A stretch of DNA of 52,252 nt, taken from contig JAUVLV010000013.1 of assembly GCA_030600545.1 (NCBI GenBank), positions 1-52,252 of the forward strand, in the 5' to 3' direction. Below the pieces are notes generated by a model. The model was not told the DNA's origin. It saw only the letters and a program-made list of their open reading frames with translations, and made no database searches. This document shows, piece by piece, positions 1,525-22,601 of this stretch (the stretch's first letter is position 1; each line of letters begins with the position of its first letter). Both the position numbers and the translations under genes were made by a program. This DNA comes from Candidatus Aegiribacteria sp. Its GTDB lineage: Bacteria > Fermentibacterota > Fermentibacteria > Fermentibacterales > JCC-6.

Positions 1525-2337
1525 TCAATGGATTTCATTGTATGATGATACTATAACTTCCAGTGACTTCTCACTGAATCCCAGGCTCTCAGCCAGCTTA
1601 ATTGAGGGTTTGTTGTTAATATCTACAAGGTATATTGGTCGATATCCATGTGAGAAGCACCATTCGGTAGCATGGCTGACAACAGCTTTTCCGTATCCTT
1701 TCTTTCTGAATTTTAGACCTGTTCCTACCGTAATATTCGCGCCCAGGTAATCGATATCTGATATGTATGCTGAAGAAGCGATTTCATCTTTCTCGAAAGC
1801 AGTGAAGTATCTGCCGGCACGAACAGTTTTCACCCTTGCGTTCCACAAATATTCAATAGATCTCTTTCCTCTAATAATCCAGCGAGAAATGAACCTGGCC
1901 CTGTCTGATTCTGATAGAACATCAACCCTGATCTTCTTTTCCTGTTTGACCAATTCTTCCTTATCCAGTGTCATTCGCATCATAAGTCTGGTGCTGTAAA
2001 GCAGGACTGGAAGAAAATCAAAGAAAGTATCATCGATCATTTTCAGCAGATCCTCGTTAATTACGTTATCTGAAAGAGGTGTACGTTGAATATCAAAGGC
2101 GGGGGCAAATTCCGGAGAAACGGAGAATATCACATTTCCATCAATCACCGTTGAAATCAGATGCTGTGCATAGAAGAAAGCAAATGTTCCTGCTCTCCTT
2201 TTGCAGGGAAACACTCGATGTCCTGCTTTCAGTCGTTCCGGATCAACGCCAAGGTATTTAAGGTAGTATTTATCGAAGGGGATCAACGATTTTTCCTGAC
2301 TTTCTTTGATATCTTCATTTTTTATCCAACATTGCAA
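1525..2337 (-). CDS. GNAT-family N-acetyltransferase with an N-terminal extension
   Basis: The C-terminal part, about residues 130-270, is a GNAT fold. Residues VGTGLKFRKKGYGKAVV carry the acetyl-CoA pyrophosphate loop (R-x-x-G-x-G), followed by a helix and the NKPSIKLAESLGF segment typical of the family. The first 120 residues are less clear; they may be a second, degenerate GNAT-like half. The acceptor (small molecule or protein) is unknown. The only in-frame start near the N-terminus is TTG at 2337, without an obvious ribosome site; a TAA lies two codons upstream. It is followed by the broken P-loop gene on the same strand. Confidence 0.75.
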   Translation of the reverse strand: MQCWIKNEDIKESQEKSLIPFDKYYLKYLGVDPERLKAGHRVFPCKRRAGTFAFFYAQHLISTVIDGNVIFSVSPEFAPAFDIQRTPLSDNVINEDLLKMIDDTFFDFLPVLLYSTRLMMRMTLDKEELVKQEKKIRVDVLSESDRARFISRWIIRGKRSIEYLWNARVKTVRAGRYFTAFEKDEIASSAYISDIDYLGANITVGTGLKFRKKGYGKAVVSHATEWCFSHGYRPIYLVDINNKPSIKLAESLGFSEKSLEVIVSSYNEIH

Positions 2338-2501
2338 TAATTATTTAACTGTTACATATCGCAGTACCTTGATACGTGCACCAGCTCCGCTGATACTATT
2401 AATCAGATTATGCTGCAGTCAAGTTCCCAGCAGCGGTTCTGCTATTCCTGATAATTCAGTTTCAGAGTATATAATAGAAATAGTTATCTTTTTTCAGTTA
2501 G

Positions 2502-2530
2502 TTGACAGGAATGAAATATGTTTCTATTGT
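2502..2530 (+). promoter_or_regulatory. sigma-70-type promoter for yicC
   Basis: TTGACA at 2502-2507, a 17-bp spacer, then TATTGT at 2525-2530. The predicted transcript starts near 2537, about 64 nt before the yicC ATG. The rest of the 2338-2600 intergenic stretch holds no convincing gene. Confidence 0.55.
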
Positions 2531-2600
2531 GGTTTCTGGGATTTTTTATTGTTGTAAGTGTCGCAAGTGAAGTCCAGCCACAAATCCGGAAGGATATCTT

Positions 2601-3482
2601 ATGGAATCAATGACAGGCTTTGGAAGAACTGAGACCGGTGGTGAAGGTTTTACGTTGACTGTTGAAACGAAATCGGTCAATCATAAAAGCCTGAGTATTT
2701 CTCTGAAGCTGCCCGAAGTATTTTCAAGTATGGAACCCGAAGTCAGAAAGGTCATCAAAGAAATGTTCGACAGGGGGCGCATCAGACTGGATGCTGCTGT
2801 TGAGATGGGTGGCTTTGGCGGTTCGTCCGTATCTATCAATATAGAATCGGCAAAGCAGTACATTATCACCGCGGAGCTTCTTATCAAGGATAACGAACAC
2901 ATCAAAGGGATGACCGCAGGGGAGCTTCTCAGTCTTCCCGGAGTTGTGGAAATAGCTGAACCTTCAATGCTTGACCGCGATGAACTGACGGATGCGTTCA
3001 GATCATCCATGATTGAGGCTTTAAAGGAACTCAGGGAGAGCCGCCGCAGGGAGGGAACTGAACTTGCCCCCTTATTTCGCGAGGGGTTCGAAAGTATAAG
3101 GGAACTGGCTGTTCCCGTTCTTGCATTGCAAAAGGAATCGGTACAGGAAAGGCACGGGCGTCTTAAGGAAAGAATATTCGAACTTCTGGATGATGTCAGT
3201 CTGGATGAAAACCGCTTGATGCAGGAGCTCGCTTTCATGGCAGACAGATCGGATATAACAGAGGAAGTTCAGAGGCTGAAATGCCACCTTGACCATGTTC
3301 TTGAAATACTGGATTCCGATGACCGTTCAATTGGACGGAAACTGGAGTTTCTTATTCAGGAGATGCACCGCGAGCTAAACACGATGGGAGCGAAAGTCGA
3401 TGATCCGGAGCAGTCACTGAAGGTTATTGAGATGAAGAACATTTTGTCTTCACTTAAGGAACAGGCTGCGAACATTGAGTAG
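2601..3482 (+). CDS. yicC: YicC/YloC-family endoribonuclease
   Basis: A 293-residue protein of normal family length. The N-terminus has the hallmark MESMTGFGR and VETKSVNHKSL segments. The C-terminal domain has FLIQEMHRELNTMGAK and ends SSLKEQAANIE, as in YicC. YicC proteins are hexameric RNases acting on RNA in the cytoplasm; a broader role here is not visible. ATG 2601 is preceded by GGAAGGAT at 2588-2595. In many bacteria yicC lies directly before gmk, and here the stop codon overlaps the TTG start of a decayed gmk. The last 51 bp recur exactly at 7862-7912. Confidence 0.95.
   Translation: MESMTGFGRTETGGEGFTLTVETKSVNHKSLSISLKLPEVFSSMEPEVRKVIKEMFDRGRIRLDAAVEMGGFGGSSVSINIESAKQYIITAELLIKDNEHIKGMTAGELLSLPGVVEIAEPSMLDRDELTDAFRSSMIEALKELRESRRREGTELAPLFREGFESIRELAVPVLALQKESVQERHGRLKERIFELLDDVSLDENRLMQELAFMADRSDITEEVQRLKCHLDHVLEILDSDDRSIGRKLEFLIQEMHRELNTMGAKVDDPEQSLKVIEMKNILSSLKEQAANIE
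3432..3482 (+). repeat. 51-bp direct repeat, copy A (3' end of yicC)
   Basis: The last 17 codons of yicC including the stop, from ATGAAGAACATT to ATTGAGTAG, are identical to 7862-7912. The match breaks at the base before (G against A) and directly after the stop codon. The two copies bracket the arylsulfotransferase-like and spermidine-synthase-like genes. Confidence 0.95.
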
Positions 3483-3591
3483 AACGTCTGGCTGGCTGAT
3501 TGTCCTCGCGGAACCTTATGGAGCCGATAAAACCATTTTGCTATCCAACCTCATGTGACTTGCGTGTTCACTGTTTTCCCGACGAGATTGT
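3475..3591 (+). pseudogene. decayed 5' end of gmk following yicC
   Basis: Reading from the TTG that overlaps the yicC stop gives MSRTSGWLIVLAEPYGADKT and then ILLSNLM before a TGA. This aligns with MSNAPGQLIVLAGPSGAGKT of the intact gmk at 10496; the Walker A loop has decayed from GPSGAGKT to EPYGADKT. After a frame change, codons at about 3562-3591 read CVFTVFPTR, matching AVFSISTTTR of the intact gene. At the DNA level the match to 10496-10620 is clear but diverged, so this is an old remnant. Nothing of gmk is recognisable beyond about 3591. Confidence 0.8.
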
Positions 3592-3630
3592 AAACTTAAT
3601 TCCGGGTTTCTTTCAAATAGAAAAAGATTC

Positions 3631-4992
3631 CTATAGGTTAAGCCAGTTTTCCACATTTTCCGTCGGCACCCTGACAACATCGAACAGAGTGGCAATAAGT
3701 TCATTGTTATCTCCTGCCCGGTAAGGATTATAGAATTCCCAGACTATCTCTCCTTCAAGAGTCACCTCGAAAGCTCTGCCCATGGTGGATTCGATAATTA
3801 GAGTGTTAGCGTTTGGAAGCCTTTGACAGGATCCGATAACTTTTGAATAGAACGGATGTTCTTCGTTCCCCGTGTAGTTCCAGAGAACTTCTCTGGTCTC
3901 CGGGTCATACTGGAGAACTGTGGATTTTTCATTTAATCCCTGATTATCAAAGATAAGAATTGTACCGTCGGGAAGGACGGTTGGCTGGTGCTGCAAGTGC
4001 CAGAAATTGGATTCTGCCCAGTATACCGTTTCTTCTTCGAGATCAACTGTGCATACAAGATCGATGGCCCTGTGGGAAATTATCACTGTTCCAGGGCGAA
4101 GGAGCCCCGTGTAATAATCTGGCAGCATTTCCGGCCCGATATACTCTATTGCGTTGCAATGAAGCACATCACCGGAATTCTCCATTCTGCGAAGAACTGG
4201 CGCAAAGCTGGAATTAGCAAGAACATCGTACGTTGAGATCCAGCGAACCATATTACCCAGAGAGTCCAGAACGCAGATGTAATCTTCTACGATGCATTTA
4301 TCTGAGGAATATCTTTCGTTGACGTGAACGTTACTCCCCAGGGCATACACGTTGCCGTTTTCATCAATATCAAGATCGTGGTGAGCGCCAATGCATTCAC
4401 TCGCCCAGAGAAGATTTGAATCCTTGTCCAGTCTTACGATACCTCCGCCTCGTATCACAACTGTCAGATCTCCATTATCGGCAAGGCAGCTTTTCCTCCA
4501 ATTGGTGTATTCAATATCCTGATCCTGAGCATCAGGCCAGAGACCGTATATTGTAACTTCATTGTTGAACCAGCTGTGTACAGTTTCTCCGTTCATATCC
4601 ATGAGAAAGATATCCGAGTCATGTCCTGACATTACAAGGTTATAACCCGGACATGTCCTGGCAGTGTCATAAACGGTAACACCCATTTCGACAGGAACCT
4701 CAGAGAAACCGGACAGGTAACCAAGTGATCGGAGCAACTCGATCTGTTCCTTTTCACTTTCAGTCATATCGTCCTCGGCAGTGGCATACGTTCTTGCCAG
4801 TCCCCAAGCACCGGGTTGTATCTCTGGCTTCTCTTCATCAATTATTTCAGGAAGATCATCGAAAGAATGAAGAATGCTAAGAATCTTTAGCCTGATAAGT
4901 CCTCTGTACCTGTAACCGGCAAATGACAGAATAACCAGTACTATAATGCCGGAGATGACAAATATTCTCAGTCGTCTGCCAGTATTTTTCAT
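3631..4992 (-). CDS. membrane-anchored arylsulfotransferase (ASST)-like protein
   Basis: A 453-residue protein with one N-terminal membrane helix (about residues 9-26) and a large outside domain that looks like the beta-propeller of bacterial arylsulfotransferases. Supporting segments are HDLDIDENGNVYALG, HCNAIEYIGPEML and WHLQHQPTVLPDGTILIFDNQG, with repeated blade-like ends such as ILWN and IVWEF. ASST enzymes move sulfate between phenolic compounds, but many family members have no known substrate, so the activity is inferred. An ELLRSLGYL segment before the propeller resembles one often seen near the C-terminus of sulfatases. The ATG at 4992 follows GAGGGAAAA on the minus strand. It is convergent with the yicC/gmk remnant. 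Confidence 0.65.
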   Translation of the reverse strand: MKNTGRRLRIFVISGIIVLVILSFAGYRYRGLIRLKILSILHSFDDLPEIIDEEKPEIQPGAWGLARTYATAEDDMTESEKEQIELLRSLGYLSGFSEVPVEMGVTVYDTARTCPGYNLVMSGHDSDIFLMDMNGETVHSWFNNEVTIYGLWPDAQDQDIEYTNWRKSCLADNGDLTVVIRGGGIVRLDKDSNLLWASECIGAHHDLDIDENGNVYALGSNVHVNERYSSDKCIVEDYICVLDSLGNMVRWISTYDVLANSSFAPVLRRMENSGDVLHCNAIEYIGPEMLPDYYTGLLRPGTVIISHRAIDLVCTVDLEEETVYWAESNFWHLQHQPTVLPDGTILIFDNQGLNEKSTVLQYDPETREVLWNYTGNEEHPFYSKVIGSCQRLPNANTLIIESTMGRAFEVTLEGEIVWEFYNPYRAGDNNELIATLFDVVRVPTENVENWLNL

Positions 4993-5014
4993 CTGTGACT
5001 TTTCCCTCTACTGA

Positions 5015-5020
5015 ATTATA
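5015..5020 (-). promoter_or_regulatory. -10 element for the arylsulfotransferase-like gene
   Basis: The minus strand reads GAGTATAATTC, a perfect TATAAT 22 bp before the start codon, giving a very short leader. The -35 position (TTCGTT on the minus strand, 17 bp away) is poor. Confidence 0.4.
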
Positions 5021-5272
5021 CTCGAATCAAATATATGAACGAAGAGGTAAAATATACATCAAGTTAAATTCTCAGACAAAGTTAAGTAATCGAGTTGGAA
5101 TGCGGATCATTCTGAATTCACTACTTATTAACTGCGCAGAGTCAGTATTGTCAATCAGTTATAGGAATTGAGGTAAACCGGAAATTGATCATTTTGCATC
5201 ATTGGCTATGTATTCTATTCGCTCTTATTTAAAGGCTTTGATATTACATGGTAGGAAATTGCTCTCAAGGCT

Positions 5273-5302
5273 TTGACAGTAACATACGTTCATCAGTATT
5301 GT
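5273..5302 (+). promoter_or_regulatory. promoter for the spermidine-synthase-like gene
   Basis: TTGACA at 5273-5278, an 18-bp spacer, then TATTGT at 5297-5302. These are the same two hexamers as the yicC promoter. The predicted leader is about 140 nt. Confidence 0.5.
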
Positions 5303-5446
5303 TACTCCATACAGAAAATCACGGTTGGACAGATAGCGGGGATCTTTCTTCAGAGCAGTATTACTGATGTCGATAAATAACAGATTCCTATCGATATCAT
5401 GTTACAGTGGAATTCTTTCTTTAATCACTTTTGAAGGGTAAATCGT

Positions 5447-6052
5447 ATGATATTAAAAGAGAGGTTCAACACACATCTGGCCATTTTTCTTGCCTCGTTC
5501 TCCATAATCTTCAGCGAGCTGATTCTGGTGAAAATCCTCTCTGGAATACGTATTGGATTTTCCCTTGCTTCTTTCTTTGTCTATGCCGGAGCAATCCTCG
5601 GGTTGGGGCTGGGCAACTTCATACTGCTTTCATCAGGGCGAAAGGATCACCGGCTTAAGAAAGTTACCTGGCTGAACAGGCTATCACCGCACCTTCCATT
5701 GTTTCTTGTACTTCTGCTGCTCTTCGTCATCCTTGTATCGCTGGTGTTGCTTCAGTTCCTTGCATTAGGACGTTTTTTTGAGCTTATCATGGGTAGCATG
5801 TATGTAATATATCCTGCGATAGTGCTTGTTTACTGCTTGTTCGGCTACTTGGTAGGCCAGATCTTTGTGTCAGCCTCCCGAAAAAACAAAACTGTTATGA
5901 CCTGGACGTTCGATATCTCAGGTTCTGCGGTGGGGGGGTATCTTGCCTGTGCTTATGATGGGGTTTGCAGATCCATTGGTTCTTTACTTCGTTCCCGTTC
6001 TTGCTACGCTGATTCTGGTGATGGTGATGTTCAGACCGGAAGGGCAGAGTAG
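5447..6052 (+). CDS. membrane spermidine-synthase-like protein, N-terminal segment (frameshifted)
   Basis: The first 164 or so residues form at least four membrane helices (starting LAIFLASFSIIFSELILVKI) and a GYLVGQIF...FDISGSAVGG segment typical of the membrane-embedded N-terminal half of SpeE-like proteins. After GSAVGG the frame turns into an unrelated polar tail and stops at 6052. The natural continuation (ILPVLMMGFADPL) is in the next frame. A run of seven Gs at 5932-5938 where six would keep the frame explains the break. ATG 5447 is preceded by GAAGGG. See the following entry for the rest of the protein. Confidence 0.7.
   Translation: MILKERFNTHLAIFLASFSIIFSELILVKILSGIRIGFSLASFFVYAGAILGLGLGNFILLSSGRKDHRLKKVTWLNRLSPHLPLFLVLLLLFVILVSLVLLQFLALGRFFELIMGSMYVIYPAIVLVYCLFGYLVGQIFVSASRKNKTVMTWTFDISGSAVGGYLACAYDGVCRSIGSLLRSRSCYADSGDGDVQTGRAE
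5932..5938 (+). other. G7 homopolymer at the frameshift site
   Basis: Seven Gs follow GCGGT. With six, codons GTG-GGG-GGT-ATC would join the two halves of the membrane protein into one frame; with seven they are split. This may be a sequencing or assembly error, a true mutation, or a tract that slips to switch the gene on and off. Confidence 0.75.
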
Positions 6053-7748
6053 AAAGATATTGCCCAGAGTACTTATTCCTCTTGTTCTGTTCTCGGCAGC
6101 CTATCTAGCTCTGATACCATCGGTGAGGACCTATGACCTCCTCAGAAGTGCGTTTCCACGAGAGTACAACAGTCTTGTCAATCGGACCATTGACAACTTC
6201 GAGGGCTTCCTCACCAGTAAGTACAGCATGGACTATATCGGGTGGTCCCCCTACAGGAAGCTCAATTACTTCGAGTCGGACAGTGCATACATGGTCACCT
6301 ATGACAACGTCACCACAACTGCGCTCATGAAGGAAAACAGTCCTTTCCGTCCTGCAAGCCTCTTCCTTTACCCGGAGCAGTCGGAGAACACGTTGATAAT
6401 AGGTGCCGGGTGCGGAGGGCAGATACCACTTCTCCTTACAATGTCGGATACCATCACAGCAGTGGAGCTGGATCCCATGGTGGTGGAGTTCGCCACTTCA
6501 CATGCCGGACCCGACCACTTCCTCCACTCACCAGATGTTACCTATCTCGCTCAAGAGGGATTGGCCTACATGAAGAGTCATCCAGGTCCTTATTCATACA
6601 TTCTCTTCCCCCTTACCGATACTTTCATTACCTCAGCGGCTCAGAGCCTGGTAAAGGCGGAGAATTACCTCTACACAAAGGAAGGCCTGGAAACCTCCAT
6701 CTCAAGCCTTTCCGATGATGGTTGCCTTGTTATCGCACTGGCCTCCGGAATGAACCAGTACGGCAGTGACATTATGAACAGGTCGTTTCCGACTGTTGCA
6801 GTTCACCTGTTCCGGAACCTTCTGGAAATAGGTGTTCCCCCGGAGAACTTCGCTATCGCCTCCGCAAGCGAGTACATAAGCGGAGGCCTTTTCCTGATCT
6901 ATGACAACAACGGACTTGACAGGGAAAGGTTTGACAGCCTCCTGACCAGCGCTGTTTATGTGGATATCGTTCTCACGGACAATGAGGAATTCATTCGGTT
7001 AGCGTCCAGCGCCGAGACAACAACCAACGACAGACCGTTCTTCTACATCGCCGGCAAAATTCCGCCGAATCCACTCATGCTTGCCACCCTGTTTCTTGCG
7101 CTATCTGCGGTGATTCCTATTTCTCTTCTCTTCTACAGAGCGCGCCGCAAGGGAGCGCTTCAAGGACTCGACAGTACTTTCATGAGTACGGAAATCCTCT
7201 ATGCCATATGCACCGGTTTCGGTTTCATGGGCATGAGTACTCTTCTTATACAAAGGGTAATCCCGATTTTCGGTGCCCCTTATCTGGCCGGAACAGTGAT
7301 CATAACCGCCCTTCTCTCAGGGGCCGCAGTGATAAGTGTTCTCATGGGAACCAGGGGTATAGGATGGAAGGGGATGACAGTGCTTTCGGTGTGTGCGATG
7401 CTTATTATACCGGTAATATCTCTCTTTGATGTTGATACATTCTCAATACTTCCCCAGTTGACTCTGATCCCGAGGATATTCCTGACCTTTGTCATCTTTT
7501 TTCCAGTGGGTATCGTATTGGGTGCCTTCTTTCCCAAGCTTCTGCAGATAACCTCTGCCAGAAGTGAGGCGCACGTGATCCTGGCATACGGTACCGACAT
7601 CACTTTTTCCATAATAGGAATAGTCGTTTCCCTGGTGATACCGGTGATGCTGGGATACAGATTCATGTTCCTGCTGATAGGGCTGGCTTACCTGATCGTG
7701 GCCATACTGCTTCAGCGCTTGAAGCGCTTGGAGGGTCTAGCTGACTGA
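5943..7748 (+). CDS. membrane spermidine-synthase-like protein, main segment (frameshifted)
   Basis: Continuation of the gene that starts at 5447. The listed start (TTG 5943) is only where the frame becomes usable, not a real start. The chain has two membrane helices, then a Rossmann methyltransferase/aminopropyltransferase-like domain with TLIIGAGCGGQ and TAVELDP, the nucleotide (SAM/dcSAM) binding motifs, and then about six more helices from NPLMLATLF to the C-terminus. Joined to the N-terminal segment it would give about 765 residues. The family is called spermidine-synthase-like, but the membrane-fused members have no proven polyamine role, and the catalytic Asp pair of true SpeE is not obvious. 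Function is therefore open. Confidence 0.7.
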   Translation: MPVLMMGFADPLVLYFVPVLATLILVMVMFRPEGQSRKILPRVLIPLVLFSAAYLALIPSVRTYDLLRSAFPREYNSLVNRTIDNFEGFLTSKYSMDYIGWSPYRKLNYFESDSAYMVTYDNVTTTALMKENSPFRPASLFLYPEQSENTLIIGAGCGGQIPLLLTMSDTITAVELDPMVVEFATSHAGPDHFLHSPDVTYLAQEGLAYMKSHPGPYSYILFPLTDTFITSAAQSLVKAENYLYTKEGLETSISSLSDDGCLVIALASGMNQYGSDIMNRSFPTVAVHLFRNLLEIGVPPENFAIASASEYISGGLFLIYDNNGLDRERFDSLLTSAVYVDIVLTDNEEFIRLASSAETTTNDRPFFYIAGKIPPNPLMLATLFLALSAVIPISLLFYRARRKGALQGLDSTFMSTEILYAICTGFGFMGMSTLLIQRVIPIFGAPYLAGTVIITALLSGAAVISVLMGTRGIGWKGMTVLSVCAMLIIPVISLFDVDTFSILPQLTLIPRIFLTFVIFFPVGIVLGAFFPKLLQITSARSEAHVILAYGTDITFSIIGIVVSLVIPVMLGYRFMFLLIGLAYLIVAILLQRLKRLEGLAD

Positions 7749-7861
7749 TGTCAACAGGTTGACTTCACATGGCTGTCGTCGGAGTACTTCATACATTGGG
7801 TTTTTTTATCCACCTTCGCTACTCCACCACCATCTATACAGTCATTGTGAATTCTCGGACA

Positions 7862-7912
7862 ATGAAGAACATTTTGTCTTCACTTAAGGAACAGGCTGCG
7901 AACATTGAGTAG
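7862..7912 (+). repeat. 51-bp direct repeat, copy B (displaced yicC 3' end)
   Basis: Exact copy of the last 51 bp of yicC (3432-3482) with no yicC body in front. Just upstream, CAGTCATTG at about 7839-7847 may be a weak remnant of the preceding yicC codons (CAGTCACTG). The bases after it (CGCTCTGGTCAG) loosely resemble the start of gmk. It lies in the 217-bp gap between the spermidine-synthase-like gene and the histidine kinase, which holds nothing else I can name. Confidence 0.95.
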
Positions 7913-7965
7913 CGCTCTGGTCAGTATACGGCGTTGTAGTAGAGTATCTGTGATGAATCCGGGCT

Positions 7966-10134
7966 TTACCTGGCATCCAGTAAATCTCTTATCTTCTGGC
8001 GAAGGGCAGTAAGACTGAAGGGTTTCTCCAGCAGATCCTTGTCGCCCTTTTTCATGTCATCAGGCATAATCTCATTCTTTATATAGCCCGTCATATATAG
8101 GATGCTGCCGTTGAAACCGTTCTCTTTCAACATAGAAGCAAGAATTACGCCGTTGATGCCAGGCAATACAACATCGGTAAGAAGGAACTGCAATTTATTA
8201 CTGATGCCTTCGAAAATTTTCAACGCTTCTTCCGCTGACCCGGCAGACATCACTTCGTATCCCTCTTGGGAAAGGTATCGCTCAACTATGCTTCTCAGGG
8301 CTTCATCATCCTCCACTAGAAGGATGTTCTCACCCTTGCTGGATTCAGTGCTCTTTGCGGTCTGCTCCTCATCGTAAATATGTTCTCCTTCAACCCTGGG
8401 CAGATATACCATGAAGGTTGTACCCACAGCGGGTTCGCTGCTTACCTCAATAACTCCGTCGCTCTGTTTAATTATGCCGTACACCATGGCAAGGCCCAGA
8501 CCGCTGCCGTTTTCACTAAGCTTGGTTGAATAGAAAGGTTCGAAGATACGAGCCTGTGTATCTGCGTTCATTCCACATCCGGTATCGCTGATAGAGAGCT
8601 GCATGTACCGACCTGGATGAAGATCGGGATTGATTACCAGTGAATTCTCGTCAATATCAACGTTGATGACCTCGATAGTGAGTTTACCGCCTGATTTCAT
8701 GGAATCTCTTGCGTTTATCACCAGATTGACGATTACCTGTTCGATCTGGCTTTCATCAGCGAAAACGCATCCTTCGTCCTGCGAGAAGGATGTGACAAGC
8801 TGGATATCCTCGCTCAGCAGCCTGCTCAACATCCTCTGAAGTCCTGATACGATCCTGCCCAGGTTCAGAATCCTCGGCTGCAGTATCTGCTGTCTGCTGA
8901 ATGCGAGAAGCTGCTGGGTTAGTAAAGAGGCTCGGTCGGCAGCTTTGAGTATCCCCTCGGCATCCGGTCGCATGGGATGGGTTTCAGGAATATCTAAAAG
9001 AATGAAGTCTGTATGACCCTTTATTACCGTAAGCAGGTTGTTGAAGTCGTGTGCAATACCGCCCGCAAGCCTTCCGACAGCATCGAGTTTTTGCGACTGC
9101 AGAAGCTGAGCTTCAAGTATCCTCCTGTTGGTAATATCCCGCACCAGAGACTGGGTACCTTGTGGAACGCCGTCCCGTTCAACAACCGAAACGCCAACCT
9201 CAAGCCAGATTCGGCCACCGCCTTTCTTAATGCCTTCACACTCGAATCTGTCGGGGACGTCTTCACCGGTAAGACGTCGATTGTGGTAATCCATGACCTT
9301 CTCTCTCCATTCCGGTGCAATGCATTTGAAAGGATCCATCTTCAGAAGATCATTCCGAGAGATACCGAATATCTTCAGAAAACGGTCGTTGGAGTAAAGA
9401 ATCTTTCCATTCTGGTCATCTATCATCACCCCGTCGGAGATATACTCCGTCATCCTGCCGAGGAAATCGTTCTTCTCCTTAAGAAGTTTCTCAAGTTCCC
9501 TGTTTTTCAGAACAAGTTCTTCCTTGTGTATGCTGATCTCCGCTTCCTGCTCAGCTTTTTCCGTCTGATGTTTTGCATCTATCTCGGTAATGACCTTACT
9601 TTTCTCCAGGTTGAAGAGTTTTTTCTCAAGCTCACTCATCCTTCGGTGATATTCAAGAGCTTTCTCGAAATCCTCTTCCTTCTCGTAAAGCTCACTGAGG
9701 GAATGGTACCCCTGTATCATGAAATCCAACGCTTCTGACCGTTCAGCTATTTCAAGGCCCCTGTTCAGATATTCCAGGGCATCTTTCTGTTCACCACTTG
9801 AGTAGTACACCTGACCTATGTTCTCGAGCACATTGGTGATGCCCTGCTTTGAATCAAGTTTTTCGTAAAGAGAAAGAGCACTGTGAAGGTGTTTTAGAGC
9901 TTCATTATGATTAAGCTGCCCCAGGCAGGCTTTGCCAAGTGCATTCAGAGCTTTTGCTTCCAGCAGTTTGGACCCGTTGGATACTGATAAACCAAGGGCT
10001 TCTTCCGCATGGGAACGGGCTTTAGCTGGGGATACCTTGAAATTCATGAGGGAAAGATCGATCAGGAGATCGATACGCTCCTTATCGGTTACCGATTTGA
10101 GTCTGTCTTCCAGCGCCTGTATCGAATCGGTCAT
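7966..10134 (-). CDS. hybrid sensor histidine kinase: TPR-PAS-HisKA-HATPase-REC
   Basis: A 722-residue soluble kinase with no membrane helix. Residues 1-165 are TPR repeats, 170-220 a coiled coil and about 225-340 a PAS domain. The HisKA box is GGIAHDFNN with phospho-acceptor H362. The ATPase domain shows N474 in NLVINARD, DTGCGM at 517-522 and GSGLGLA at 543-549. A C-terminal receiver domain has the acidic pair in LLVEDDE, phospho-acceptor D654 in LLTDVVLPG and K704 in EKPF. All key residues are present, so it should autophosphorylate and pass phosphate to its own receiver. The ATG at 10134 follows AGGGGGA on the minus strand. No cognate output regulator is adjacent. It sits inside the split yicC-gmk locus. 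Confidence 0.93.
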   Translation of the reverse strand: MTDSIQALEDRLKSVTDKERIDLLIDLSLMNFKVSPAKARSHAEEALGLSVSNGSKLLEAKALNALGKACLGQLNHNEALKHLHSALSLYEKLDSKQGITNVLENIGQVYYSSGEQKDALEYLNRGLEIAERSEALDFMIQGYHSLSELYEKEEDFEKALEYHRRMSELEKKLFNLEKSKVITEIDAKHQTEKAEQEAEISIHKEELVLKNRELEKLLKEKNDFLGRMTEYISDGVMIDDQNGKILYSNDRFLKIFGISRNDLLKMDPFKCIAPEWREKVMDYHNRRLTGEDVPDRFECEGIKKGGGRIWLEVGVSVVERDGVPQGTQSLVRDITNRRILEAQLLQSQKLDAVGRLAGGIAHDFNNLLTVIKGHTDFILLDIPETHPMRPDAEGILKAADRASLLTQQLLAFSRQQILQPRILNLGRIVSGLQRMLSRLLSEDIQLVTSFSQDEGCVFADESQIEQVIVNLVINARDSMKSGGKLTIEVINVDIDENSLVINPDLHPGRYMQLSISDTGCGMNADTQARIFEPFYSTKLSENGSGLGLAMVYGIIKQSDGVIEVSSEPAVGTTFMVYLPRVEGEHIYDEEQTAKSTESSKGENILLVEDDEALRSIVERYLSQEGYEVMSAGSAEEALKIFEGISNKLQFLLTDVVLPGINGVILASMLKENGFNGSILYMTGYIKNEIMPDDMKKGDKDLLEKPFSLTALRQKIRDLLDAR

Positions 10135-10452
10135 AAGAACTGATTCCCCCTATTTGATAAAGCAATAGGAAAATCGATTTCCAGCCACACCATGATTCGT
10201 TCCCGACATGGTACTTCTATTCCCCGTGACCTTGATCTATCATACTGAACTGATGATACTACCTGCCACTCCGCCCGGTCAATTCCACGGATGACTGATA
10301 ACTGCCCAAACCACGCCGCAGGATACACCTCATCAGCGAAGGCTGCCGGATAAAAGAAATGACCTCCATACGGCCACCTCACTTCGGGCTGGTGATGTCT
10401 TTGAATTATGTTTAATATACTTCGTAGTGTATGGTGTTGTCCGAATCGCTTT
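10135..10452. other. 318-bp intergenic stretch, no gene seen
   Basis: Lies between the divergent histidine kinase and the gmk leader. No frame gives a recognisable protein. TTTAATATAC near 10411-10420 could supply a -10 element (TAATAT) for the gmk operon, but no matching -35 was found. It is not similar to the region upstream of intact yicC; the similarity begins only at about 10453. Confidence 0.5.
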
Positions 10453-10469
10453 ATCCGGGAGGATATCTG

Positions 10470-10499
10470 ATGGAATCGATGATAGGCTGCGAATATTGA
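10470..10499 (+). pseudogene. collapsed yicC remnant forming a 9-codon leader before gmk
   Basis: The region 10453-10485 matches the yicC ribosome site and first codons (ATCCGG-AGGATATCT-ATGGAATC-ATGA-AGGCT), and at AGGCT it jumps to the last codons of yicC (GCGAA-ATTGAGTA). Intact yicC has ACAGGCT both near its start and near its end, so a deletion between those two short repeats explains the structure. What is left encodes MESMIGCEY, behind GGGAGGA, and its TGA overlaps the TTG start of gmk as TTGA. It may act as a translated leader coupling ribosomes to gmk. Confidence 0.75.
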
Positions 10500-11791
10500 G
10501 TAACGCGCCCGGGCAGCTGATAGTACTTGCCGGACCTTCGGGAGCCGGTAAAACCACCCTTGCCCATCACCTTGTTGAGACGTTCAGTTCAGCAGTATTC
10601 TCAATTTCAACAACAACAAGAAATTCGCGTGGTTCGGAGAAGAACGGGGTAGACTACTTCTTCAAAGGCAGGGAAGAATTCCAGGAGATGATAGAAAAAG
10701 GTTATTTCCTTGAGTACGCGGAGGTTCACGGACATCTTTATGGAACCTCAAAAGCCTGGGTTTTAAAAGAACTATACCGCGGGGCAAGTGTTATCCTTGA
10801 TATAGATATTCAGGGGGCACTTCAGGTTAAGGAAGCTTTTCCAGCTTCAATACTGATCTTCGTTCTGACGCCTTCTCCGGATGTACTCCGCAGCAGGTTG
10901 ATATCCAGAAATACAGATGATCCTGATGTCGTTCGAAGAAGGATGGAAACCGCAGTATGGGAAACGGGCTGGATCGGTTCCTTCGATTACTACGTACGCA
11001 ATGGCAGCCTTGAGGATTCCCTGCTGCAGGTTGAAGCGATATTCCGTGGTGAGAAACTTAAGCTGGCGAATATGGGCTTCCCTTCTGAAGTCAGGGCTTT
11101 TTCTCCCGATTCTTTCACTGGGCTTGAACACTGGCGCGGAAAAAGGGTGATAGTAACATCCGGCCCCACAAGGGAACCGCTTGACAGGGTTCGTTTCATT
11201 TCCAACAGGTCCAGCGGACTTATGGGTTGCAGTATGGCGGAGGCATTCCGTGATGCCGGAGCCGATGTTCTGTTCGTTACCGGTCCTGCCTGCAATTCAG
11301 ATCCTTCCGGAACGGATATTATTACCGTTGAAACAGCACGGGAAATGCTTGATACTCTCATGGGCGAAGTTGAAAGGGCCGATCTGCTTGTAATGGCAGC
11401 GGCAGTATCCGATTTCAGCCCTTCTGATTTCTTTGATGGTAAAACCGAAAGGGCAGGAACTGTAGAGCTTGAACTTGAAGCAACTCCCGATATACTGGAA
11501 GAACTGCACAGGTCAGTAGACGGTATGTGTCCGGTGATGGCTTTTGCCCTTGAATTCGGGTCCGGCGGAGAAGAGAGAGCCCTTCGTAAAATGAAGAGGA
11601 AGGGGGCAGACGCAATTTTCTACAATCCGGGGGATATTCCAGGAGCCGGAATGGATGTATCCTCCAACCAGGGGAAGCTGATTTTCAATAACGGCAGTTC
11701 CGAGGAAGTCAAACGGTTCTCGAAAAGGTATATTGCTGAGCTGCTGGCCGCAGCCATGGGAAGATATTTAACGAAAGGCAGTGAATGTTAA
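10496..11791 (+). CDS. guanylate kinase - phosphopantothenate-cysteine ligase (CoaB) fusion
   Basis: Residues 1-190 are guanylate kinase (GMP to GDP): P-loop GPSGAGKTT, then SISTTTR and the GVDYFF and YGTSK segments that bind GMP. Residues 205-431 are the CoaB half of Dfp/CoaBC: VIVTSGPTREPLD, VRFISNRSSGLMG, MAAAVSDFSPSDFF and KMKRKGADAIFYN. CoaB joins cysteine to 4'-phosphopantothenate in coenzyme A synthesis. The CoaC decarboxylase half, which normally precedes CoaB, is absent. I take TTG 10496 as start because it gives MSNAPGQLIVLAG and matches the decayed gmk after yicC; GTG 10427 would only add out-of-frame yicC remnant. It heads a ten-gene run. Confidence 0.9.
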   Translation: MSNAPGQLIVLAGPSGAGKTTLAHHLVETFSSAVFSISTTTRNSRGSEKNGVDYFFKGREEFQEMIEKGYFLEYAEVHGHLYGTSKAWVLKELYRGASVILDIDIQGALQVKEAFPASILIFVLTPSPDVLRSRLISRNTDDPDVVRRRMETAVWETGWIGSFDYYVRNGSLEDSLLQVEAIFRGEKLKLANMGFPSEVRAFSPDSFTGLEHWRGKRVIVTSGPTREPLDRVRFISNRSSGLMGCSMAEAFRDAGADVLFVTGPACNSDPSGTDIITVETAREMLDTLMGEVERADLLVMAAAVSDFSPSDFFDGKTERAGTVELELEATPDILEELHRSVDGMCPVMAFALEFGSGGEERALRKMKRKGADAIFYNPGDIPGAGMDVSSNQGKLIFNNGSSEEVKRFSKRYIAELLAAAMGRYLTKGSEC

Positions 11792-12537
11792 TGGCTGAGG
11801 ACAGGAATACACTTACTCCGCGAGGGAAAGCTGATCCCTTCTGGAATTCGGTAGCCAGTTTTGGTATTGATGAGATTTTTGTACTTCCTGAATGGATTTC
11901 AGAACTGAAAGGTGAGAAGACTCCTTCGGTGACAGGTAAAGAAGGTGGAAATATATCGGGGGAACTTGAGGCTCTTACTTCAAGGGTTGGTAACTGCCGG
12001 GCTTGCCGTCTATGTGAAGAAAGGAACTCGATTGTTTTCGGCGGAGGTAACCCTTCCGCGGGGATCCTGTTCATCGGTGAGGGGCCCGGAGCCAACGAAG
12101 ATATTCAGGGCAAACCATTCGTTGGCCGCGCGGGGAAGCTGCTGGATAAAATACTGGAAGCTATCGACCTGGACAGGGATTCAGTGTACATAACAAATAT
12201 CGTGAAATGCAGACCCCCCGGTAACAGAAATCCTTCACCGGATGAAGTTGCAGCCTGCTGGTGGATACTGGAAGAACAGATACGGATAATGAAACCGGGT
12301 ATTATAGTATCCCTTGGTGCGCCTGCCAGCAGAACAATGACTGGTAGCACAGAGGGTATAGGAAAACTCAGAGGTTCCATTCACAGATATGGCGATATAC
12401 CGGTTCTTCCCACCTATCATCCGGCTGCTCTTCTGCGAACTCAAGCCCTGAAAAGACCTGTATGGGAGGATATGAAAAAGCTTAAAAAACTGCTCGATGA
12501 ACTGAATCTTCCAAGAACCGGGAAGGATAAAGCATAA
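11785..12537 (+). CDS. family 4 uracil-DNA glycosylase with 4Fe-4S cluster
   Basis: Removes uracil from DNA as the first step of base excision repair. About 65 unmatched residues precede the domain. Cysteines C71 and C74 (also C77) in NCRACRLC, with C142 in IVKCRPPGNRNP and C158 in AACWW, fit the four cluster ligands of this family. Motif A is GEGPGANEDIQGKPFVGRAG and motif B is HPAALLR. The gene overlaps the gmk-coaB end: ATG 11785 or ATG 11791 are both possible. Its own TAA shares a base with the dnaB ATG, implying coupled translation. Confidence 0.93.
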   Translation: MLMAEDRNTLTPRGKADPFWNSVASFGIDEIFVLPEWISELKGEKTPSVTGKEGGNISGELEALTSRVGNCRACRLCEERNSIVFGGGNPSAGILFIGEGPGANEDIQGKPFVGRAGKLLDKILEAIDLDRDSVYITNIVKCRPPGNRNPSPDEVAACWWILEEQIRIMKPGIIVSLGAPASRTMTGSTEGIGKLRGSIHRYGDIPVLPTYHPAALLRTQALKRPVWEDMKKLKKLLDELNLPRTGKDKA

Positions 12538-13892
12538 TGGATGAAAAGGGGCACAGGCCCCCACATAGCCTGGATGCTGAAAAGAGCGTTCTTGGAGCTA
12601 TGCTTCTCGATCAGGAACTCGCTGTTGAAGCCCTTGATGGACTTAACACAAACGATTTTTTCGACCGCAAACATAGGAGAATCTTCCAGGCTTGCCGTGA
12701 TCTTGATTCAAAAAACAGCGTAATGGATATGGTTACGGTTGGTGAGGAATTATCGAGAAAAAAGACTCTGGAAGAGGCCGGAGGTATAGAGTACATCGCT
12801 TCTCTTACCGATGACATTCCCCTGCTTTCGAATGTGCTTCAGTACATAAAGATAATCAAGGACAAGGCCATGCTTCGCCAGCTCATCAAGGTAAGCAGAG
12901 AGAATATCAACGAAGTTCTCGAAGGAACTGATGATGTAGAGAACGTTCTTGATGCAGCTGCCAGCAAGATCATGGCGATTACCGAATCAAGGGCTTCGGG
13001 TGAGTTCAAACCTTTAGCACAGCTTGTTTCCAGGGGTATCGAAGAACTTGAAAACCTCAGGAATACCAAGGGTTACGTCACCGGGCTTTCCACCGGGTTT
13101 ACCGAGCTTGATAAGATGACTACGGGATTTCACCCGGGTGAGCTGATTATTCTTGCCGCGAGGCCCGGTATAGGCAAAACAAGTATGGCATTGAATATGG
13201 CGACACATATCGCAAGCGAAACGGAAAAGGCTGTAGCTTTTTTCAGCCTGGAGATGTCCGATGCGAAACTTACTCAGAGAATGCTCTGCGCCGATGCCCA
13301 CATAGGTACAAAACCAATTATCGAGGGGACCCTTTCCCAGAATGCCTGGTACGATCTTCAGGCAGCCGCCGACAGGCTCCAGAGGATGAAGATTTTCATC
13401 GATGATAAGGCCAGTATAGGTTCTATGGAGGTAAGGGCAAAGGTAAGAAGCCTTAAAAGGCGGGAAGATCTCTGCATGGTCTTCGTCGATTATCTTCAGC
13501 TTATGCGTTGTGACGGAAAATCCGAGAATAGACAGCAAGAGATTGCGCGTATAACGGGCGATCTTAAAGCGCTTTCCAAAGAGATGGAGCTTCCCGTGAT
13601 GGCGCTTTCCCAGCTGAGCCGTATGGCTACAAAAAGGAGCGGTACTCCCAGGCTCAGCGACCTCAGGGAAAGCGGTGCTATAGAACAGGATGCCGACCTG
13701 GTAATGTTCCTTCATCAGCCGGAAATACATGCCGATCAGGACGGTGAATTTGAAGGTCAGATTGATTTTCTCAGAAGAGAAACTGTACTGAAGATAGGAA
13801 AACAGCGAAACGGCCCTCTGGGCATAATAGAGCTTATTTTCCAAGCCGATATCACCCGCTTTTTTCCTGTTGATCAAGACGGATTTGATTAG
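12537..13892 (+). CDS. dnaB: replicative DNA helicase DnaB
   Basis: A 451-residue hexameric helicase of the replication fork. The N-terminal domain starts PHSLDAEKSVLGAMLL. The RecA-like domain begins near residue 180 and has Walker A ARPGIGKTS (208-216), FFSLEMS, VFVDYLQLM as Walker B and LSDLRESGAIEQDAD. Length and motifs are normal and no intein is present. The ATG overlaps the previous stop. The neighbouring radA and the glycosylase make this a replication and repair block. Confidence 0.97.
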   Translation: MDEKGHRPPHSLDAEKSVLGAMLLDQELAVEALDGLNTNDFFDRKHRRIFQACRDLDSKNSVMDMVTVGEELSRKKTLEEAGGIEYIASLTDDIPLLSNVLQYIKIIKDKAMLRQLIKVSRENINEVLEGTDDVENVLDAAASKIMAITESRASGEFKPLAQLVSRGIEELENLRNTKGYVTGLSTGFTELDKMTTGFHPGELIILAARPGIGKTSMALNMATHIASETEKAVAFFSLEMSDAKLTQRMLCADAHIGTKPIIEGTLSQNAWYDLQAAADRLQRMKIFIDDKASIGSMEVRAKVRSLKRREDLCMVFVDYLQLMRCDGKSENRQQEIARITGDLKALSKEMELPVMALSQLSRMATKRSGTPRLSDLRESGAIEQDADLVMFLHQPEIHADQDGEFEGQIDFLRRETVLKIGKQRNGPLGIIELIFQADITRFFPVDQDGFD

Positions 13893-13903
13893 TTAGGGGC
13901 AGT

Positions 13904-15280
13904 TTGGCCAAAAAGAAGACAATTTTCATCTGTAACGAGTGCGGAGGAAATACAGTAAGATGGTCCGGGAAATGCCCCCATTGCGGAGCATGGAACACCA
14001 TGGTGGAAGAGGTGGTTGTAAAGGTTTCCGGAAAACCCCTTTCCAGAGGAATCGTTACTCACCCCGTTCCTCTCTCAGAAATCCCGAAAATTTCCGGGGA
14101 ACGATTACAAACAGGTATTGAAGAACTTGACAGAGTTCTGGGCGGGGGTGTTCTCAAAGGATCGGTGAATCTTATAGGAGGAGAACCCGGCATCGGGAAA
14201 AGTACCCTTATGCTTCAGCTTTCCGCCGCTCTTTCAGACAGAGGAGAGAAAGTACTTTACTCAACCGGCGAGGAATCCCCTGAACAGATTGCCCGGAGGG
14301 CACGCAGAATTAATTCAGTGCGGAATGACGTGATAGTTCTTGCCACAACGAACCTTGATACTGTCCTCAGTAATCTTTTGAACACAGGCTGTTCCCTCGT
14401 AGTGGTTGATTCCATCCAGACACTCTACTCCTCCGACCTTGCCAGTGCTCCCGGTACAGTTTCCCAGGTGAGGCACTGTACTTCGGAGCTTATAAGAGAA
14501 TGCAAAACAAAAGGTTTAACCGCTTTCATAGTCGGCCATGTAACCAAGTCTGGTTCACTGGCGGGGCCGAAGGTTCTGGAACACCTTGTTGATTCTGTTA
14601 TATATTTCGAGGGTGAGGGAGATCGGGTCTACCGTCTTCTCAGAGTTGCAAAGAACCGTTTCGGTTCAACAAATGAGCTTGGTGTGTTCGAGATGACCGT
14701 GGAAGGGCTGCGAAGCGTAAGAGAAGTATCAGCCTACTTCCTAAGGAGGGATAACGCCCTTCGTACAGGAACTGTTATTACAGTTGTCATGGAGGGAACA
14801 AGGCCATTTCTTGTAGAAGTTCAGGCTTTAACAAGTACCACAAGGTACGGATATCCACAGAGAAGTGTTAACGGTATGGATTCCCGCAGACTGCCGATGC
14901 TTCTTGCGGTGCTGGAAAAAAGATGCGGGATGGATCTTGGCAATCAGGACGTCTTCGTAAATGTTGCCGGAGGCGCCAGCCTGACCGACCCCGGAGCTGA
15001 TCTCGGGGTTTGTCTTGCGGTTGCTTCCAGCAGACTGGAAAAACCGGTGAAGGAGGGCATTACCGTCAGCAGCGAGATAGGGCTTGGCGGAGAACTCAGG
15101 CCGGTGACACATTTTGATCTCAGATTGAGAGAAGCTCTCAGCCTGGGATTTTCAGGGCTGGCTGGAGCCGCGGATGATGCGGAAAAAGCCGGCAGTGGAG
15201 CAGAGGGTTTTATAAGTTTAATTAATTCCATCGAAAACCTTCTCTCCAATCAAAAGAAAAAAGGAGGAAACTGGTTATGA
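13904..15280 (+). CDS. radA: DNA repair protein RadA (Sms)
   Basis: Recombination-associated ATPase and branch-migration helicase. It has a four-cysteine zinc finger (C10, C13, C24, C27), Walker A GGEPGIGKST at 92-101, the RadA-specific KNRFG motif at 250-254 and a C-terminal Lon-protease-like domain with DVFVNVAGG. The length of 458 is typical. The start is TTG 13904 behind AGGGG, 11 bp after dnaB. Its TGA overlaps the next ATG. Confidence 0.96.
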   Translation: MAKKKTIFICNECGGNTVRWSGKCPHCGAWNTMVEEVVVKVSGKPLSRGIVTHPVPLSEIPKISGERLQTGIEELDRVLGGGVLKGSVNLIGGEPGIGKSTLMLQLSAALSDRGEKVLYSTGEESPEQIARRARRINSVRNDVIVLATTNLDTVLSNLLNTGCSLVVVDSIQTLYSSDLASAPGTVSQVRHCTSELIRECKTKGLTAFIVGHVTKSGSLAGPKVLEHLVDSVIYFEGEGDRVYRLLRVAKNRFGSTNELGVFEMTVEGLRSVREVSAYFLRRDNALRTGTVITVVMEGTRPFLVEVQALTSTTRYGYPQRSVNGMDSRRLPMLLAVLEKRCGMDLGNQDVFVNVAGGASLTDPGADLGVCLAVASSRLEKPVKEGITVSSEIGLGGELRPVTHFDLRLREALSLGFSGLAGAADDAEKAGSGAEGFISLINSIENLLSNQKKKGGNWL

Positions 15281-16284
15281 AAACATCAGGCTGGGAAGTA
15301 CGTATACTTTTCATTCTTGTTCTCGGCCTATTGGGGACATTCGCATTCGATGGACTTTCGCCCTCCCCATGGTTCGGACTTACCGGTCTCGGGATCGGCA
15401 TAGTTGCCGTTATCCTGCAGATCGTATTCGTCAGGATTCCTGCAGATGAAATTATTTATACAACTGTCGGTGCGATTATCGGGCTTGTCGCAGGTATTCT
15501 TGTTATACTGGCGCTTCGTATGGGGAACCTCTCCGCATCTGAATCCGGCGTTACACCGCTTATTATGATACCTTTTGCATTTGCGTACGTATTCGGTCAC
15601 GTGGCATTCACAAAGGGTAAGAAACTTGGGCTGATGCAGACTAACGAAGAAAAAGAAAAAGCTGCTACACCTGTTCTGGTAGACCTTTCCGCGGTAATCG
15701 ATGGCCGGGTTGCGGATATGCTGCTTGCAGGACTTATCAGAGGGCCCTTTATTCTGTCGGCTTCAATAAAGAACCAGCTTGAGGAAATGGCTGATTCAGA
15801 CGATATAATTGAACGGGGTCGCGGCAGAAGAGGTATGGAAACTCTTGAAAGGCTTGAAGACGCTGCGGGCAATTCCGGAGGTCTTGAATACAAGGACTTC
15901 GGAAAACAGGAGAGAGAACGTTTCCGCATGCTTGAATACATCAGAAAAGAAAGCGTATCCCTCCTGAGCAGCGACAGTGATATTCTTGATATAGCTATGA
16001 AAGAGGGCAATCACGTTATAAATCTTGAAGAGGTGGGGCCTGCTTCCAGGCCTGTGACGTTACCGGGAGAGGTACTGTCCATAAGGCTGGTCAGGAAGGG
16101 AAGAAATCCCAAACAGGCTGTAGGTTTCATGGATGACGGAACCATGATAGTAGTAGAAGATGCCGAGGGGATGATAGGCACCAGCGTTGAAGTTCAGGCT
16201 CATACAACTTTCAGATCATCGGGCGGAACCATGGTCTTCGCAAAACTGAACAAGGATGGCAGCGTCACCGGAACCGATGACTGA
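15277..16284 (+). CDS. PIN-TRAM domain membrane protein (YacL type)
   Basis: Four membrane helices occupy residues 1-115. A PIN nuclease domain follows (VLVDLSAVIDGRVADML, DSDDIIERGRGRRG and DSDILDIA carry the acidic residues), then a TRAM RNA-binding domain at the end (VGFMDDGTMIVVEDAEGMIG). This is the YacL/TadL-like family found next to radA and ispD in Firmicutes, so the order radA-yacL-ispD-ispF is ancient. Its RNA target is unknown. It overlaps radA by 4 bp. Confidence 0.88.
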   Translation: MKTSGWEVRILFILVLGLLGTFAFDGLSPSPWFGLTGLGIGIVAVILQIVFVRIPADEIIYTTVGAIIGLVAGILVILALRMGNLSASESGVTPLIMIPFAFAYVFGHVAFTKGKKLGLMQTNEEKEKAATPVLVDLSAVIDGRVADMLLAGLIRGPFILSASIKNQLEEMADSDDIIERGRGRRGMETLERLEDAAGNSGGLEYKDFGKQERERFRMLEYIRKESVSLLSSDSDILDIAMKEGNHVINLEEVGPASRPVTLPGEVLSIRLVRKGRNPKQAVGFMDDGTMIVVEDAEGMIGTSVEVQAHTTFRSSGGTMVFAKLNKDGSVTGTDD

Positions 16285-16316
16285 CGGGCAGGGAGAATAC
16301 TGAAGAGCTGAATCGT

Positions 16317-17486
16317 ATGCAGAAGAAAAGCTGGGGCGTTGTAATTGTTGCTGCCGGTTCAGGAACCAGATTTGGTTCAGGAGTACACAAGCAATTTCTC
16401 AGGCTTCATGGCATACCAATCATTGAATGGTCGATCAATGCTTTTCTGGCCATTGATGAAATCGGAGAGATCGTTGTCGTTACCCCGGGTGACACTGCAC
16501 TCTGGGAGTCATTCTGGAAACCACCGGCAGGCATAAAGACCATTTCGGGGGGCCTTCGGCGTCAGGACTCCGTTCTTGCCGGCCTTGAAGCCCTGGATTC
16601 ATCCAGTAATGTACTTATCCACGATGCAGCACGCCCTCTTGTTTCATCCTCTATTATCAGGAATGTCATGAAGGGTGTAATTGATTCGGGGGCTGCAGTG
16701 CCCGTTATTCCCATAAGGGATACTGTGAAGAAAGTAACATCATCTTCTCTCGTAAGCGGCACCGTTTCAAGGAACAATTTACGAATGAGCCAGACACCTC
16801 AGGGGTTCATCCTTGAAAATATTCTTCGGGTTCTCAAAGATGCCGATGAGGTGACCGATGAGTGCGCGGCAATGGAATCAGCCGGTTTTGAAGTTCTTGC
16901 CGTGGCAGGGGAACCGGGAAATATGAAGCTTACGGATCCGGAGGATTTAATGATCATGGAGTCACTGTCGGGGGGGAGTATGGAAAGCAGAATCGGAACC
17001 GGCCTTGATTTCCATCCCTTTGAGTCGGGAATTCCTCTTTTTATCGGCGGTTGTCATATTGAATCAGAATTCGGCCTTTCAGGTCATTCCGATGGAGATG
17101 CTGTACTGCATGCTGTTTCGGACGCTCTTCTGTCGGCGGCCAGGCTGGGTGATATAGGAGTGCTCTTTCCTCCGGATGATGACAGGTGGAAGGGCGCTGA
17201 CAGTGCAGTTCTTCTGGAAAAGATCTGTGACCGCGTTCGTGGAGAGGGCTGGAGAATAAGACAGATCGATGTAACTGTTATTACGGATTTTCCGAAGATC
17301 TCTCCCATCAGATATGTCATGATTAACAGGATAGCTGATATAGTCGATACTGAACCGGAGAGGATATGGGTAAAGGGGACATCAACAAATACACTTGGCG
17401 ATATAGGAAAAGGAAAAGGCCTGGGCTGCATGGTTATGGCCAGGATCGCAAGGAGAACTGACACTGCGGCGATTGGGAATCATTGA
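16317..17486 (+). CDS. ispDF: bifunctional IspD-IspF of the MEP isoprenoid pathway
   Basis: Residues 1-221 are IspD (CTP plus MEP to CDP-ME) with VIVAAGSGTRFGSGVHKQF, HDAARPLV and TDECAAME. Residues 222-389 are IspF (MEcPP synthase) with metal ligands D231, H233 and H265 in TGLDFHPF and GHSDGDAVLHA, and the KGTSTNTLGDIGKGKG loop. The fusion is known in several phyla. It skips IspE, which is not in this window. ATG 16317 starts 32 bp after the PIN-TRAM gene. Its TGA overlaps the TTG of the next gene. Confidence 0.96.
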   Translation: MQKKSWGVVIVAAGSGTRFGSGVHKQFLRLHGIPIIEWSINAFLAIDEIGEIVVVTPGDTALWESFWKPPAGIKTISGGLRRQDSVLAGLEALDSSSNVLIHDAARPLVSSSIIRNVMKGVIDSGAAVPVIPIRDTVKKVTSSSLVSGTVSRNNLRMSQTPQGFILENILRVLKDADEVTDECAAMESAGFEVLAVAGEPGNMKLTDPEDLMIMESLSGGSMESRIGTGLDFHPFESGIPLFIGGCHIESEFGLSGHSDGDAVLHAVSDALLSAARLGDIGVLFPPDDDRWKGADSAVLLEKICDRVRGEGWRIRQIDVTVITDFPKISPIRYVMINRIADIVDTEPERIWVKGTSTNTLGDIGKGKGLGCMVMARIARRTDTAAIGNH

Positions 17487-18094
17487 TAGAAAGAATACTT
17501 GAATACCTTGCGAATAACCCGCCCGGTGCCTGGGCCGGACCCCTTCTTGGATTAATTGCTTTTGTTGAAACTCTTTTTCCTCCGTTTCCCGGTGATATCC
17601 TCTTCATTGTCGTTTCAGGCTGGACCGTTTCAAGCGGCTTTCCTCTTTTCCTGGTAGCTCTTTACGGAGTTACCGGTTGTTTTATGGCAAGCTGTATACT
17701 TTTCTACCTCGGCCATAAACCTGGAAAGCAATTCGTTGAAGGCTGGCTGAAAAGGAAGTTGGAGCCGGAAAGGGTCAACAAAGCAAAAGAACTGATCGCA
17801 AGCCATGGCCCTCTTATACTTGCTGCAAGCCGGTTCATTCCAGGAATAAGATCCCTTCTCGTACTCATGGCGGGAACCTCGGGCATGCGGTTCGTCCTGG
17901 CCGTGATTCCTGTGGCTTTCAGCGCCATAGCATGGTATACGATACTTTCGGTGGCAGGTTCGGTTCTCGGGAATAACATACAGGCCGCAGAGGGATTCAT
18001 GAAGCATTTTGAGATATGGATATGGGTTGTTCTTGCCCTCGCGCTCCTGGTTTTCCTTATCATCAGGATTCGCCGAAGGAAGGAGAAAAAGTGA
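17483..18094 (+). CDS. DedA-family (VTT domain) membrane protein
   Basis: A 203-residue inner-membrane protein with about five hydrophobic segments. It has the DedA motifs ETLFPPFPGD near the N-terminus and SRFIPGIRS in the middle. DedA proteins are implicated in flipping or recycling of lipid carriers such as undecaprenyl phosphate. The start is TTG 17483, overlapping the ispDF stop. Its stop overlaps the start of glgA. Confidence 0.92.
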   Translation: MIERILEYLANNPPGAWAGPLLGLIAFVETLFPPFPGDILFIVVSGWTVSSGFPLFLVALYGVTGCFMASCILFYLGHKPGKQFVEGWLKRKLEPERVNKAKELIASHGPLILAASRFIPGIRSLLVLMAGTSGMRFVLAVIPVAFSAIAWYTILSVAGSVLGNNIQAAEGFMKHFEIWIWVVLALALLVFLIIRIRRRKEKK

Positions 18095-20261: not shown

Positions 20262-20281
20262 CGGAAAGGGAGCGTTGAAGA

Positions 20282-21577: not shown

Positions 21578-21592
21578 GAGAAATTGCGGGGG

Positions 21593-21620: not shown

Positions 21621-21660
21621 ATTTCGGTGATTGTTTCTCGCTATTGTTAGGAGGATTTTA

Positions 21661-22590: not shown

Positions 22591-22601
22591 AAGTCACTAT
22601 T

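Follow-up and report, generated by a model that had tools for sequence, protein, structure and literature searches.

Organization of the yicC-gmk locus

The window analysed here, a stretch of 52,252 nucleotides, belongs to a draft genome of Candidatus Aegiribacteria sp. (G000) of 2.29 Mb in 74 contigs that is 73% complete. It carries one intact yicC and one intact gmk-coaB, with other genes between them and with remnants of both genes (Table 1). Three copies of the yicC-gmk junction (c1, c2 and c3) were distinguished, the second of which had been overlooked in the earlier note on this DNA.

Table 1. Coordinates of the features at the yicC-gmk locus (positions in the window).
Feature	Position	Strand	Remarks
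Upstream region of intact yicC	2471..2582	+	common to G000 and G018
c1: ribosome-binding site and intact yicC (yicC 2601-3482)	2583..3482	+	PF03755, PF08340
c1: decayed gmk start	3475..3558	+	27 codons in gmk frame, then stop; P-loop lost
Arylsulfotransferase gene	3631..4992	-	paralogue 79% identical on another contig
Membrane gene, weak spermine-synthase match	5447..7748	+	two overlapping frames, 5447-6052 and 5943-7748
c2: yicC end	7836..7912	+	partial copy; 7862-7912 identical to 3432-3482
Hybrid histidine kinase gene	7966..10134	-	in other neighbourhoods in relatives
Ancestral yicC upstream region (P), now ahead of gmk	10389..10452	+	
c3: ribosome-binding site and start of yicC, with its last 20 bases	10453..10503	+	joined at AGGCT, 10484-10488
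Intact gmk-coaB	10496..11791	+	PF00625, PF04127; start TTG 10496-10498

In c1, intact yicC is followed by what the earlier note had read as a decayed 5′-end of gmk, and alignment bears this out: positions 3463-3535 match 10484-10556 with 77% identity over 73 bases, with a local alignment score of 42, where the best of 300 simple shuffles reached 26. The remnant reads LSRTSGWLIVLAEPYGADKTILLSNLM, then a stop (3475-3558). Loss of the P-loop and presence of the stop stand as first described, but the frameshift also claimed does not precede the stop, because the remnant stays in the gmk frame for all 27 codons. The upstream region of intact yicC contains TTGACA-17-TATTGT at 2502-2530, and parts of this region, mainly 2542-2582, are repeated at nine other places in the genome, some of them gene starts.

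In c3, the two ends of yicC, which had been recognised as joined at AGGCT ahead of intact gmk-coaB, are directly visible in the sequence as a 5′ part (10453-10488) and the last 20 bases of the gene (10484-10503). The 5′ part is 89% identical to 2584-2619 over 36 bases and scores 52 in local alignment, the best of 300 simple shuffles scoring 27, so that both remnants lie well above shuffled sequence. ACAGGCT occurs at both places in intact yicC, and the bulk of the gene would have been deleted between the short repeats AGGCT. What is left forms a nine-codon mini-frame, running from ATG at 10470 to TGA at 10497-10499 behind the ribosome-binding site GGGAGG, the stop of which overlaps the gmk start in TTGA (10496-10499). 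This overlap is not in itself a sign of selection, since any frame across the yicC deletion ends on or enters gmk. A leader of its own would be needed by gmk because the upstream kinase gene is on the other strand, and the yicC remnant probably is this putative leader. The region upstream of c3 gave no sigma-70-like match on the + strand and one on the - strand, in the direction of rqcH; RNA structure in the leader region (z -1.37 and +1.52) was nothing beyond that of shuffles. The guanylate kinase and a CoaB-type (DFP) domain are encoded as one 431-residue protein, and frames of similar length are present in many relatives.

The partial copy c2 shares 51 of 51 bases with c1, and this stretch has just these two sites in the draft genome at up to 3 mismatches. 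Its likeness to yicC extends back to about position 7836 in comparison with G018, the closest relative, in which the yicC-gmk pair is single and clean: the 26 bases 5′ of the identical stretch align with G018 yicC at a score of 17, reached by 0 of 2000 shuffles, and with the yicC of G000 itself at a score of 3, reached by 321 of 2000. The identity over 51 bases is suggestive of later homogenisation, and conversion between junction copies is likely. Since gmk-like sequence after c2 was not significant in local alignment, c2 is claimed as a yicC end alone. The adjoining 42-base element (7924-7965), for which no stable RNA fold was found, has eight further places in the genome at 88-95% and is also present in a few relatives.

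Genes between the junction copies

About 6.9 kb of other genes had been placed between the copies, and these can now be named: they encode an arylsulfotransferase, a protein that matches spermine synthase weakly (below the Pfam cut-off), and a hybrid histidine kinase. All are elsewhere or absent in relatives, and their histories differ. The spermine-synthase-like region (5067-7794) is 91% identical to that of G013, versus 75% for yicC. Its gene is one 768-codon frame in G013 and two frames in G000, which meet at a run of seven G (5932-5943) and reflect either a real break or a sequencing error. A 46-base piece in the insert resembles part of the second arylsulfotransferase gene of G013.

The kinase locus of G018 is similar to those of G011, G014, G006 and G009 within the gene itself and in none of the flanks. 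The G000 gene (722 codons) lacks, at 9536-9783 of the window, two stretches that are present in the 871-codon gene of G018; the ends overlap by 6 and 17 bases, as in short-repeat deletions. In the loci of nine relatives, where up to 1500 flanking bases were searched (in five loci, one flank was limited to about 450), no convincing direct repeats surround the kinase gene; the matches obtained were one of 25 bases (E 0.023, locus L105) and an inverted one (E 0.023, locus L069).

The insert genes are no duplicated copy of their neighbours, and the locus is thus not a plain tandem duplication. The 91% likeness to G013 implies that foreign DNA entered, which would suit integration in one step, whereby recombination at the resident junction took up a DNA circle or incoming fragment that bore a junction copy, and the insert arrived already flanked by direct repeats, without prior tandem duplication. 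The 51 bases common to c1 and c2, with their unlike flanks, also resemble a crossover or conversion tract. However, c3 combines a lineage-specific GAG with older bases (see below), a poor fit to one recent donor, and its upstream region, about 82% identical to G013, did not arrive with the G013-like gene. We regard integration in one step as unlikely.

A transposon or integrase element that duplicated its target on entry would likewise account for direct repeats around the insert. Such insertion leaves a fixed short target duplication and a recombinase; here the shared stretches differ in length from case to case (about 35 to about 990 bases) and contain decayed gene parts, and no recombinase is among the eight window proteins scanned, which makes a mobile element very improbable. 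Inverted repeats were also considered, and of the 22 pairs listed for 2400-12000 none bounds the insert.

The yicC-gmk junction in relatives

A search of 36 family genomes (G000-G035) recovered yicC from all of them and gmk from 35. The two genes are adjacent on one contig, as a single pair, in 33 of the 33 relatives where the arrangement was readable (counted by eye), in agreement with the earlier statement that their order is conserved; G000 is the only family genome in which they are separated, by about 7 kb. The arrangement was unreadable in G008 (yicC at a contig end, no gmk match) and in G033 (yicC and gmk at the ends of two contigs). The yicC and gmk frames overlap at the junction in 16 of the 17 genus relatives measured, the exception being G001. 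Firmicutes are likewise reported to have yicC next to gmk (PMC8041843). A second yicC-like match, away from gmk, lies in a 712-codon open frame of the family member G023 (contig C55, locus L002).

In all eight loci mapped (G018, G009, G010, G011, G016, G012, G002 and G003), two window blocks, one with its end at 3533-3535 and one starting from 10484, map to a single yicC-gmk junction with an overlap of 70-72 bases. Among the 19 genus genomes, extra yicC/gmk junction copies are found in G000 alone, except for a 41-base match to gmk only in G011. Both outer flanks (1527-3533 and 10484-23924) match one contig of G018. This agreement speaks against a faulty assembly of sequences from more than one strain, as does the presence of diverged, decayed remnants at both insert ends, which misassembly does not make. 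The fragmented and incomplete state of the draft and the exactness of one repeat over 51 bases could raise such a suspicion, which we consider scarcely credible.

Timing of the proposed duplication

A few diagnostic sites distinguish the junction copies. Both c1 and G018 have GGAAGG ahead of the start, CTTATGG, GAACATTGA and TAG, and c2 carries GAACATTGA and TAG, whereas c3 carries GGGAGG, CTGATGG, GAATATTGA and TAA. All 13 other genomes aligned have GAATATTGA and TAA, and the ribosome-binding site is variable among the others. GAG in place of GAA is common to c1, c2, c3 and G018 and occurs in none of the 13 others. The common GAG together with the older bases places c3 within the G000-G018 lineage, yet parted from it before G018, and on these few diagnostic sites the duplication appears to predate the split of G000 from G018. 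The earlier contention that the remnants are not of one recent event agrees with this, as c3 keeps bases that have changed both in G018 and in the intact yicC copy.

The yicC and the gmk-coaB trees (15 genomes) each join G000 with G018 at 0.994, so that replacement of yicC by a foreign gene, which was also considered, is not supported. The first 100 bases of G000 gmk are 89% identical to G009, 90% to G011 and 89% to G018, unlike further along the gene. P at c3 is 87% identical to G009 over 94 bases, versus 76% for yicC.

Duplication of the pair followed by reciprocal loss, the reading first proposed, is supported in that both members are present twice, with one decayed in each copy, and that relatives have a single pair. 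It was incomplete with respect to the three junction copies, the apparent homogenisation of c1 and c2, the mixed histories of the insert genes and the probable leader. The remnants are indeed absent from relatives without the duplication; this had been named as evidence against the reading, although a duplication private to the lineage predicts just such absence.

In the explanation that we favour and hold to be fairly probable, the overlapping-frame yicC-gmk pair would have been duplicated in the common ancestor of G000 and G018. One copy would have kept yicC and lost gmk, and the other kept gmk and lost all of yicC except its two ends; other genes would have come to sit between the copies, and G018 would have returned to one clean pair. 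With the gmk start within the yicC end and the promoter ahead of yicC, prior copying of the junction is presumably what allowed the pair to separate. Today yicC may be driven by other upstream sequence, and gmk by what used to be the yicC upstream region and ribosome-binding site, by way of the nine-codon leader ending on the gmk start, in which case the yicC remnant would be retained as the leader of gmk and not merely as debris.

Separation of rqcH and yicC in the genus

In the ancestral arrangement, rqcH and yicC are transcribed away from each other on either side of one common intergenic region (P). A gene rqcH with PF05833 was identified in 18 of the 19 genus genomes. It neighbours yicC in 11 of the 19 (G001, G002, G004-G009, G014, G015 and G017; G015 by its rqcH start alone), and the two genes are apart in eight (G000, G003, G010-G013, G016 and G018). 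In a census of P with a 127-base query, in which all candidates were scored, P was single in nine of the 11 neighbour genomes and a second copy was present in none; with this query P was not found in G001 and G005, where it is perhaps too diverged. G017 has an additional yicC-start fragment with 24 bases before it.

P is present, whole or in part, on both sides in seven of the eight separated genomes, G018 being the exception. For G000 it is the copy now preceding gmk that forms the second side, and intact yicC follows a different upstream region; one further copy lies on contig C52, away from rqcH and yicC. In G003 and G012, two P copies on the same contig enclose about 3 kb, and the stretch common to both sides in G016 is about 35 bases. 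At least the G003 duplication is its own, since both of its copies share changes that are absent from the others aligned.

Several further observations were made in these genomes. On the rqcH contig of G016 (C68, locus L093), P copies with shared changes lie at 2253-2316 and 3657-3730, about 1.4 kb apart, in addition to the copy before yicC. The rqcH match of G003 (L079, G003:C16:33401-34078) has one TAG stop. Contig C83 of G018 (L067, 3068-3461) contains an rqcH start, the intergenic region and a yicC start fragment; this fragment is 85% identical to G009, whereas the rqcH region of G018 itself is 73% identical, and it may be acquired DNA or a contaminant and was excluded as one side of a P pair.

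No flanking copies were found around the 2.2 kb insertion of G018 (acetyltransferase gene to yicC). A blanket rule that copies flank every insertion in the genus is refuted by this insertion and the nine kinase loci. Their lack of copies would fit a filter, by which copies last where both neighbours need the stretch. We tentatively propose, as a possibility that may well prove wrong, a copy-first mode of gene-order change at rqcH-yicC-gmk, in which the shared stretch is duplicated, genes settle between the copies and the sides decay reciprocally. The copies would persist only where both neighbours depend on them, and the ends of the dead gene would become the leader of the survivor.

Comparison with known processes

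Tandem duplication followed by random loss is a model for mitochondrial gene-order change. The present case is alike in that a block of neighbours was copied, that each copy lost a different member and that remnants mark the losses. It differs in involving a bacterial gene pair with overlapping frames, and in that genes foreign to the copied block lie between the copies, for which reason the strict tandem model does not apply. In duplication, degeneration and complementation (subfunctionalisation), both copies are kept because each has lost a different needed part, as may also be the case here; what is divided in G000 is two whole operon genes with their start signals, and not the functions of one gene. 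Leader mini-frames coupled to the next gene have their own ribosome-binding site and a stop overlapping the next start. The short frame of c3 has these features, but it is built from the two ends of a gene that was once full-length, and its function as a leader is putative.

The literature match for tandem duplication and random loss concerned flatworm mitochondria and not bacteria, and PMC8942028 deals with bacterial amplifications and not with such a split. In titles and abstract openings, with few subscription papers covered, no case of such a split of a bacterial gene pair was found among the matches listed, and nothing was returned on divergently transcribed genes in this connection.

The process, duplication with reciprocal loss, is of a known kind and is here unusually well preserved. 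The separation of tightly joined bacterial genes is usually invisible because the intermediates vanish; at this one locus, the 19 congeners present the intact order together with several separations that have the shared region on both sides. It would accordingly be predicted that copies of the shared stretch lie on either side of insertions at shared promoters or gene overlaps, and that insertions at independent sites are without them. In G000 the fossils of both genes are still readable, and the case shows how bacterial gene order changes.
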